NCBI RefSeq assembly: GCF_016612535.1
Contig: NZ_JAENXS010000001.1
Location: forward strand, 930,001-994,000
DNA: 64,000 bases
Source: Bradyrhizobium diazoefficiens
Lineage (GTDB): Bacteria > Pseudomonadota > Alphaproteobacteria > Rhizobiales > Xanthobacteraceae
Direction of reading: 5' to 3'
The position numbers and the translations under genes are program-made. Under the pieces are notes generated by a model. The model was not told the DNA's origin and did not search any database. It saw only the letters and a list, made by a program, of their open reading frames with translations. Every line of letters starts with the position of its first letter. Position 1 is the stretch's first letter. Positions 41,068-61,196 of the stretch are shown piece after piece.

Positions 41068-41143
41068 GGCCCGGTGGCGGAAGCGTCTACGCGAGAGCAG
41101 TGCATCGCTCTTCATCCTGGTTCAAATCCAGGCCGGGTCTCCA
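41068..41143 (+). tRNA. tRNA-Cys-like gene with an 8-base anticodon loop
   Basis: A 7-base acceptor stem (GGCCCGG/CCGGGTC, one G-T), D-arm (GCGG/ACGC) with an AAGCG start like Cys tRNAs, a perfect T-arm (CCTGG/CCAGG, loop TTCAAAT) and an encoded CCA at 41141-41143. The anticodon stem AGAGC/GCTCT closes on AGTGCATC, eight bases with GCA after the T. D-loop lacks the usual GG. Either a degenerate tRNA-Cys(GCA) or an unusual functional one. Confidence 0.5.
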
Positions 41144-58691: not shown

Positions 58692-58874
58692 GTTCCCTTC
58701 TCCAGTGTTAGTTACCCCTCGGCGGGAAAACAAATCGCGCATGGTGACGTTCCGGTTTCCGTCTGGAAACTTTCTTGAACGGATGTTCAGGGAGTTCCGG
58801 AATCGAGCGTGTGGGCGCGTTCTATCTTGATGACGCGACGATGGTGATTGCGTGATTACCCGATAAACGATCAA

Positions 58875-59057
58875 GTGCACTGTCGTGCCGAACGTGGAAG
58901 TTTCATGCACTGTCACCGTAACTCCGGGCCAGTATCCTCGAGCAATGACGACACCGGCGACGCGAACGAGTGAGGGAGAAGGAAAGCGTCGAAAGCCCCG
59001 AATATCTGCAGCTCGGTGACAGTGCATGAAATTGACGTTGAGTTTTGTGCACTGTCA
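58875..59057. repeat. Inverted and repeated TGCACTGTC cluster
   Basis: TTTCATGCACTGTCACCG at 58901-58918 is perfectly inverted at 59014-59031 (95 bases between). TGCACTGTC also occurs at 58876-58884 and 59048-59056. Could be operator sites or ends of a small mobile element at the left side of the accessory block. Confidence 0.7.
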
Positions 59058-59085
59058 ACTAAACAACACTCGCGCAAACGTCGGT

Positions 59086-60303
59086 TTAAATACGAACTCG
59101 AAAGCGGCCATCTTGATCGAAAGATGGCGTTCTAGCCCTTCCAGCCGCATTCGCGATTTGGTCGAGCAATGGCCGAAGACATATCGCGTACTCGTATGGA
59201 TCGAGAGGCACGTCGTCTATGATTTGCTCGGCGAAATGGAACTGGTCCCGATCAAGCACTCCTGCTTGATCTTCGAATAAGGTGCCGGGCTCCATGGCGA
59301 AAGAATAGGGAATGCCCTTCACCCCGATCAAGCTGACGAGCAGAACATAGGGCGGAGCCGCATCGCGCGCAACGAGCGATCGCAGATAGGCATGGGACTC
59401 TCTGACAATGGTGCCTTCGGTGCGGATCGAAGTGAGACGATCGGGATTTTGCCCTATTCCGCCACCCGTCGCGAACACGGAGTCCACAGCCTCAACAATT
59501 CCATTGTGATAGGCCTGCACGTAAGCGCGATGGCTTCGCCCATCTGCTCCACGATTCGAGAGCACCAAACAACCATCGATATTGATACGGAAGTCGCCGG
59601 CTTGGCCGCCTATTGGTGAAAACGCGGTAAAGAGCTGCTGTGGAGCCTGGTTGATATCAAGACGAAATGACTGAGAGCCGTCGAAGGCAGACAGCGGAGC
59701 AACGTGTAATACGAGAGGGCGACTGCCCATGAGCGGAACCGGCGTATCTCCGCCAACAATCTTCGCAATACGATCAAAGCGAAAATTGCGAATGCGATCG
59801 GCTAATTGCGGCGCCCGAGTGAAGAGACCACGGAGTTCGTCAACGTTCGGCTCGTATTTACCAGCTGATGATCGCGCCCAAAATCTGTTGCTTCCTTTAC
59901 GGACGACCCGGTGTGGTTGATTGTAGCTTCGCGGAATGCGGAGCACCAAAACGTGCCCGCCCCCTGTGATTGGCACAGCTTGCACAGCAAAGCCGAAAAT
60001 TTGCGGTTGCAGTCCTGTGCGCGCGCTGGCTTCTAGCCGCAAGACCTCGGCATCAGCATCGATTTGGAGTGCGGAAAGAGCCGTAGGCAGACCAGCCTGC
60101 TCCGTCATTCCAATAATGATGTCGCCACCGGCAGTATTTGCGAACGATGATACGTCAGCGAGAAATTCACTGAGGTCCTTATCTTGCCCACCATAAACAT
60201 TAGCTTTGTATTCGATATCGCGCCTTTCCGGGACCTGTGCTTGGATCAGGCGTTGGAGGTCAAATTCACTGATCGCGCTTAAAGCGACACCTCTTAAACT
60301 CAT
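59086..60303 (-). CDS. AlbA_2 (Schlafen-like) domain protein
   Basis: 405 residues. The first 150 carry the AlbA_2/Schlafen ATP- or nucleic-acid-binding domain: VPERRDIEYKANVYGG with Glu26, Glu31 and Lys33, FLADVSSFANTAGGDIIIGM, and GSNRFWARSSAGKYEPNVDELR. The remaining 250 residues match nothing I recognise and may hold an effector or sensor. AAGGGTAGG precedes the ATG. Eight bases separate it from the GIY-YIG gene upstream, so they form an operon. Domain is firm; a defence role is inferred. Confidence 0.82.
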   Translation of the reverse strand: MSLRGVALSAISEFDLQRLIQAQVPERRDIEYKANVYGGQDKDLSEFLADVSSFANTAGGDIIIGMTEQAGLPTALSALQIDADAEVLRLEASARTGLQPQIFGFAVQAVPITGGGHVLVLRIPRSYNQPHRVVRKGSNRFWARSSAGKYEPNVDELRGLFTRAPQLADRIRNFRFDRIAKIVGGDTPVPLMGSRPLVLHVAPLSAFDGSQSFRLDINQAPQQLFTAFSPIGGQAGDFRINIDGCLVLSNRGADGRSHRAYVQAYHNGIVEAVDSVFATGGGIGQNPDRLTSIRTEGTIVRESHAYLRSLVARDAAPPYVLLVSLIGVKGIPYSFAMEPGTLFEDQAGVLDRDQFHFAEQIIDDVPLDPYEYAICLRPLLDQIANAAGRARTPSFDQDGRFRVRI

Positions 60304-60311
60304 CGCGTAAC

Positions 60312-60902
60312 CTACCCTTCGAAATCATGTTCAACCTGAACATCGGGGAGATATTGCACCGATCTCCACCAGCGCTGCTTATCACGGGCGATCAATGCGG
60401 ATGTGCGATCGGAGAACCAAATGTTGCCGCCTTGCGAGGCGGTAAGGCCGGGCACCTCATCGCCACGCGCCCATTCAACGCTCCCCCAGCGTCCACCGCG
60501 ACCAGTATAGATAAGCACGAAATACCGATCCATCTGCACATCGTAGTGCACGCCACGGAAGCCGGCTACGTTGTATCGGTAGCGACGGCGGTGTTTGACG
60601 ATCGCTGGCACAATCGGAGCGGTGAGACTGCACCAGCGGTAATGCTTGCGTTCGTTTAGCAGAGTGGGAAACCGATTGATCCAGAGGGTCTCTGTGTCGA
60701 ACCGTTCCCCGTAGTTGCAGCGCTGGAGGAGCGCGCATCGAATCGGATAACCCTGTTTCCATTCCTCTAGAAACCATTGGCGTAGCACGCCGCTGGCATA
60801 TTTGAGGTGTTCCCGAAATCGGTCCTCGCGCGTGCCGGCAGTCTCGCCCACGTAGCGGACGATAAAATCACGACCGGAAAAGAGCGCATAGATCTCGGCC
60901 AT
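60312..60902 (-). CDS. GIY-YIG-like nuclease-domain protein
   Basis: 196 residues. The N-terminus fits a GIY-YIG nuclease: IYALFS at 4-9 and YVGET at 17-21 for the two strands, Arg30-x-His32 in the helix, the metal Glu71 in DTETLWINRFP, and Asn83 in LLN. Residues 110-196 form an extra domain with Trp-rich strands (RGGRWGSVEWARGDEV, KQRWWRSV). First gene of an operon with the AlbA_2 protein, next to tRNA-His. A nuclease role is a good prediction; the target is unknown. Confidence 0.75.
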   Translation of the reverse strand: MAEIYALFSGRDFIVRYVGETAGTREDRFREHLKYASGVLRQWFLEEWKQGYPIRCALLQRCNYGERFDTETLWINRFPTLLNERKHYRWCSLTAPIVPAIVKHRRRYRYNVAGFRGVHYDVQMDRYFVLIYTGRGGRWGSVEWARGDEVPGLTASQGGNIWFSDRTSALIARDKQRWWRSVQYLPDVQVEHDFEG

Positions 60903-61119
60903 GGCGAGGTTCCCATGGGTTCCATCCGCGCTCGGATTCAGGCGAAATCGAGACAGGACAATGCGGCGATATTGCTCCAGGAAAAGAGCATTTGCGGGCT
61001 GTGGGGAGGTTCTCGGGAATCGAACCTTGGCCTGACCACAAGAACGACAGAAAGCGAATACCGCTCATCGCTACCCTTGGGCGGCTTAGGGGGAATTTCA
61101 GTCTGCGTATTGATTGCAC

Positions 61120-61196
61120 TGGTACAGTTGGGTGGGCTCGAACCACCGACCTCCTGTTCCACAGACAGGCGCTCTAACCAACTGAGCTACAACTGC
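61120..61196 (-). tRNA. tRNA-His (GTG), no G-1
   Basis: From 61196 on the minus strand: acceptor GCAGTTG/CAACTGT (G1-T72 wobble), D-arm, anticodon stem CCTGT/ACAGG around CTGTGGA (anticodon GTG), T-arm GGTGG/CCACC with TTCGAGC, discriminator A and encoded CCA at 61120-61122. Canonical tRNA-His has G-1 opposite C73; their absence matches the known alphaproteobacterial exception. The AlbA_2/GIY-YIG block lies on its 3' side. Confidence 0.95.

Follow-up and report, generated by a model that had tools for sequence, protein, structure and literature searches.

A GIY-YIG nuclease gene paired with a Schlafen-like AlbA_2 gene beside tRNA-His in Bradyrhizobium diazoefficiens: a rare, loosely linked pair with a likely role in defence

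The 3' side of a tRNA-His gene in Bradyrhizobium diazoefficiens carries two closely spaced minus-strand genes, one encoding a 196-residue GIY-YIG protein with a probable AP2-like C-terminal domain and the other a 405-residue AlbA_2 (Schlafen-like) protein. The pair lies in the window, the 64,000-nucleotide stretch of DNA that was analysed (G000:C1:930001-994000, G000 being the genome from which it comes), and a preliminary description made from these letters had proposed a nuclease joined to a sensor or effector, perhaps a defence system. The GIY-YIG gene is upstream, 8 nt ahead of the AlbA_2 gene in an operon-like layout, and 217 nt separate it from the tRNA-His 3' end; the two reading frames, their spacing and their position are as first described. 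The GC content of the pair (59086-60902) is 0.551 versus 0.627 for the whole window. The features are as follows.

58835..61119, no strand assigned: strain-specific segment containing the pair (comparison with locus L109 of genome G009)
59086..60303, minus strand: AlbA_2/Schlafen-fold protein, 405 residues (open reading frame, PF04326, family search, structure model)
59146..59793, minus strand: C-terminal part of the AlbA_2 protein, residues 171-386
59851..60228, minus strand: AlbA_2 domain, residues 26-151 of the 405-residue protein
60312..60902, minus strand: GIY-YIG protein with probable AP2-like domain, 196 residues (open reading frame, family of 71, conserved catalytic residues, structure model)
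60336..60581, minus strand: probable AP2-like C-terminal domain, residues 108-189 of the 196-residue protein
60642..60902, minus strand: GIY-YIG catalytic domain, residues 1-87 of the 196-residue protein
60903..60955, minus strand: 5' leader common to the Bradyrhizobium pachyrhizi copy (DNA homology to L002)
61120..61196, minus strand: tRNA-His (GTG), 3' end facing the pair (ARAGORN; Rfam RF00005)

The family search with the GIY-YIG protein returns 71 proteins, the window protein counted, of which 57 were aligned and 14, mostly short or partial, were dropped. Tyr5, Tyr17, Glu71 and Asn83 are invariant in all 57 sequences, window protein included, so that the motif tyrosines, the glutamate and the asparagine originally picked out hold good and only the arginine was misplaced, the conserved one being Arg28 (56 of 57) and not Arg30. 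Poor conservation of these residues among homologues had been named as a sign of chance; the catalytic residues are instead kept in 56-57 of the 57. The window protein has no Pfam match at E <= 1, PF01541 included, and PF01541 is matched by 26 of the 57 aligned members (best 1e-6). The structure model, with a mean predicted local distance difference test score (pLDDT) of 90.4, fits solved GIY-YIG structures and supports the prediction of a genuine GIY-YIG nuclease fold. Compared with the B. pachyrhizi copy, the gene is under purifying selection (nonsynonymous divergence dN 0.178, synonymous divergence dS 1.22, 191 codons), which, together with the recurrence of the pair as a unit on different flanks, lifts the GIY-YIG signal above chance. 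Relatives were found neither in plasmids nor in the phages searched, three distant loci occur on viral contigs, and PHROGs holds no match for the window protein. The single-gene type IV restriction proteins CMoRE and PD-T4-3 differ from it, its own C-terminus being probably AP2-like; CMoRE, described in PMC12923530 as single-component with a GIYxY motif that has an extra tyrosine, and characterised by a modification-sensing domain at its C-terminus, aligns structurally solely within residues 1-85 of the model, and that tyrosine is absent here (IYALF in the window, IYGLY in the family consensus). A GIY-YIG relative of G245 that has no AlbA_2 (L059, 6894-9547) is separated by roughly 1 kb from a gene with a match to a TIR-type effector model (2.1e-8).

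The C-terminus of the GIY-YIG protein, at first left unassigned, has now been modelled and is probably an AP2-like DNA-binding domain, presumably homologous to AP2. Since support at the level of sequence is absent (no Pfam AP2 match in the 57 family members) or weak (profile-profile comparison), this call draws on the fold and on the relatives from viral contigs; a search of 60 related genomes at E <= 1e-5 found no AP2 gene. Two of the viral-contig relatives combine GIY-YIG, NUMOD3 and AP2 (L005, L006) and the third GIY-YIG and NUMOD3 (L007), some of these domains falling below the Pfam cut-off. The three-domain arrangement is a homing endonuclease build; according to PMC10448857, homing endonucleases that join an HNH nuclease to AP2 are known, and those of phages commonly contain GIY-YIG. 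This adds a reading that the preliminary description had missed, in which the GIY-YIG gene has lodged upstream of the AlbA_2 gene as a stand-alone homing endonuclease, cutting alleles that lack it and spreading with its flank, the AlbA_2 gene being an independent defence gene and the pair hitch-hiking. The GIY-YIG plus AP2-like build and its precedents agree with such a history, as does the sporadic distribution of the gene, which lacks an adjoining AlbA_2 gene in G245 and G298. The window protein nevertheless departs from AP2-type homing endonucleases in that no NUMOD3 is seen, the Pfam scan of the 57 members at E <= 1 being empty of it, and in its place within a bacterial operon-like pair, where the shared strand and 8-nt gap fit an operon; nor do the 16 loci compared include an empty allele with matching flanks. 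Homing would be a credible history for the gene, held with clearly less than even confidence and behind the favoured reading given below.

The AlbA_2 domain first proposed at the N-terminus of the 405-residue protein is borne out by PF04326, which matches residues 26-151 with 44.2 bits (E 3.2e-11), the cut-off being 25.3, and the structure model (mean pLDDT 84.2, predicted template modelling score 0.62) has the AlbA_2 fold, which supports a genuine AlbA_2/Schlafen-fold protein. The family numbers at least 1,304 proteins, the window protein counted, and the alignment used here holds 34 of the best 120 among these matches. When catalytic positions are mapped through HMMER alignments to solved Schlafens, the first two catalytic acids (E205 and E210 of rSLFN13) are kept, with Glu26 in 34 of 34 and Glu or Asp at position 31 in 34 of 34. 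Schlafen and SAMD9 structures match about residues 1-155, and among the matches listed no Schlafen structure covers the remainder. The top sequence match among solved structures is CbCash (PDB 9ylu; E 1.9e-7, residues 24-163, PH-R-G motif included), which differs in having 297 residues versus 405 and on whose biology a literature search returned nothing. Relatives of the AlbA_2 protein occur in 23 plasmid records, at one distant locus on viral contigs and in none of the phages searched, and its domain matches a PHROGs 'DNA helicase' family (4.1e-8). The gene is split or partial in several relatives, R. tropici among them (L002, L073 of G053, L147, G263, G028 and G110); that of G263 lies on two contigs, perhaps merely through an assembly break.

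Within 265 genomes of the genus, own genome included, the GIY-YIG gene is found in five (four full, one a fragment) and the AlbA_2 family, counting split and partial genes and applying a threshold of 100 bits, in 17. Two genomes, that of the window and B. pachyrhizi G159, hold both genes, which are adjacent in each, against 0.32 genomes expected by chance (p 0.035, for co-occurrence alone). In B. pachyrhizi (L002), DNA homology extends over 59086-60955 and no further: it begins at the AlbA_2 stop and takes in 53 nt upstream of the GIY-YIG gene. The flanks differ from those of the window, order, strand and leader are the same, and there is no tRNA within the 19 kb examined. Among metagenome proteins, a GIY-YIG relative (P0011) and an AlbA_2 relative (P0088) have longest contigs of the same size, 2,863, the one value common to 67 GIY-YIG and 119 AlbA_2 contig sizes, so that the two may share a contig. 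Other close GIY-YIG relatives lie on contigs roomy enough for both genes (3,239, 3,865, 13,103 and 140,699) and no AlbA_2 protein on a contig of the same size appears among the best 120 of at least 1,304, which speaks mildly against strict linkage. Linkage of the two genes is real but loose, and the pair is rare.

The tRNA-His 3' side (window 61120; L105-L116) is a variable site in the genus. In 12 of 12 relatives compared, homology to the window begins at 61110-61120, about the tRNA-His 3' end; on the far side of the pair, it stops at variable points or lies beyond the compared stretch, and other DNA intervenes. Gene layout beside the tRNA varies among several relatives, with some genes common to some of them. 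Because homology to G009, which has roughly 4.5 kb of different sequence at this point, breaks off at 58834 and restarts at 61120, 58835-61119 is strain-specific. Several relatives contain, at other places, stretches of 45-54 bases that nearly replicate the tRNA-His 3' end, like those left by integrated elements, and these suggest an integration site. No pair of att sites was found, because the genome of the window holds no second strong copy, its six other matches being 74-84% identical over about 28-60 bases. A site of this kind might join two unrelated accessory genes by serial insertion, and either gene is indeed found elsewhere without the other. Such chance neighbourhood, which the preliminary description would have accepted had the pair never been seen together again, is nonetheless improbable: the B. 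pachyrhizi copy repeats order, strand and leader with no tRNA nearby, albeit in only two genomes in all, and the pair may also sit on one metagenome contig.

The reading favoured here, at a probability of roughly 45%, is a small horizontally moved cassette composed of an AlbA_2 Schlafen-like anti-phage effector and a co-transcribed, optional GIY-YIG-AP2 DNA-cutting arm; a defence role for the pair is likely. Upon infection, the N-terminal AlbA_2 domain would cut tRNA or other RNA and so stop translation, with the C-terminal part of the protein perhaps serving in sensing or regulation. The GIY-YIG-AP2 protein, putatively of homing-endonuclease descent, would be transcribed together with the AlbA_2 gene, its AP2-like domain binding DNA and its GIY-YIG domain nicking or cutting it. 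That a Schlafen-type ribonuclease has in this way recruited a former homing endonuclease to cut DNA, giving a new defence module with one operon directed at both phage DNA and cell RNA, is a narrower and rather unlikely claim.

The surroundings of AlbA_2 relatives are accessory and defence-rich, their function being a separate matter. Around 21 AlbA_2 loci, a set of 146 proteins encoded no farther than 4.5 kb away hits 115 PADLOC models at E <= 1e-15, and 142 control proteins hit 5 (best 2.3e-26); the figure of 115 is inflated, since a single intron-type reverse transcriptase accounts for matches to 58 models at E <= 1e-5. The controls were drawn from elsewhere in 12 of these genomes and in G000, G159 and G245, keeping 25 kb or more away from any AlbA_2 gene on the same contig, and comprise 142 of 168 called genes on 16 of 20 stretches, three stretches having been dropped as near AlbA_2 genes on short contigs and the remainder for a size limit. 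Proteins of more than 1,000 residues were excluded on both sides, for example the products of UvrA-like and ribonucleotide reductase genes beside AlbA_2; the excluded UvrA-like neighbour matches the ABC-type defence model mad3 (6.3e-100). With the reverse transcriptase set aside, 12 kinds of model are matched at E <= 1e-60 among 25 matches listed, and if these come from 9 distinct proteins, as assumed, compared with none of the 142 controls, Fisher p is 0.0035, the 9 and the E limit both having been picked post hoc. Three of eight plasmid loci inspected, from the 23 records, have annotated restriction, Abi, toxin-antitoxin or SLATT/nucleotidyltransferase genes nearby, and five have none. In G220 (L062, 6276-8337), an AlbA_2 relative directly precedes, overlapping or abutting, a Hypoth_Ymh/PD-Lambda-3_B gene (3.7e-79), which is an alternative AlbA_2 neighbour. 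In G247 (L068, 7079-9774), a BilD homologue (PADLOC 2e-137) is followed after 11 nt by another AlbA_2 relative; small genes come before, and the relative is possibly an accessory of a Bil system. These loci resemble the window in having AlbA_2 relatives adjoining such genes and differ in that neither partner is next to the window pair, one component of each system being identified.

Besides the share of the reverse transcriptase in the model count, several observations weigh against the cassette reading. The third Schlafen acid (D248 of rSLFN13) is not kept, residue 68 being Ala in 24, Glu in 8 and Thr in 2 of the 34 sequences, a difference from the bacterial and mammalian Schlafen and SAMD9 proteins, although the window protein itself carries Glu68. 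PADLOC has no model for the window GIY-YIG protein and a sole match near the AlbA_2 protein, GajB at E 0.025, and NCBIfam has no model for either. A promoter scan of the pair region found no promoter-like site. At seven further AlbA_2 loci, nine of the ten nearest genes lack a defence model at E <= 1e-5, the tenth being the same reverse transcriptase. When the two proteins were joined as one query, no fusion appeared: none of the best 120 of 446 matches spans both, and top coverage is 71%. The GIY-YIG gene lacks an AlbA_2 gene beside it in three of its five genomes, and 15 of the 17 AlbA_2 genomes lack it. In a fixed two-gene system, partners would be together in most genomes; here they are so in 2 of 5 on the GIY-YIG side and 2 of 17 on the AlbA_2 side. 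Of the preliminary proposal, the two folds and the defence-gene surroundings of AlbA_2 relatives stand, as does adjacency in both genomes having both genes; a fixed two-gene system is not supported. In B. pachyrhizi, moreover, the GIY-YIG gene is intact and the AlbA_2 gene broken, a state that agrees with homing. The same state, like the solitary GIY-YIG genes of G245 and G298, makes it very improbable that the nuclease is a toxin and the AlbA_2 protein its antidote, a toxin-antitoxin arrangement that two closely spaced genes, one of them a nuclease, might otherwise bring to mind.

Immediately beyond the AlbA_2 stop, at 58870-59060, lies a TGCACTGTC repeat cluster containing an exact 18-nt inverted repeat (58901-58918 and 59014-59031), the 15-nt core of which has no further exact copy in the genome. 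The terminator scan gave 2 terminator-like sites versus 2.6 expected. Elsewhere in the window, ARAGORN reports at 41068-41143 a tRNA whose anticodon has, unusually, four bases (tgca).

A literature search, with bioRxiv and most subscription papers outside its scope, found no description of the pair and no paper joining 'GIY-YIG' and 'Schlafen'. The analysis places a large, little-characterised Schlafen-like family of about 405 residues (at least 1,304 proteins) near bacterial defence genes. Some members occur without a GIY-YIG gene, and their direct neighbours vary, from GIY-YIG-AP2 here to PD-Lambda-3_B and BilD elsewhere. If the partner nuclease truly cooperates with the AlbA_2 protein, the pair would illustrate how a homing endonuclease can come to belong to an immune locus.
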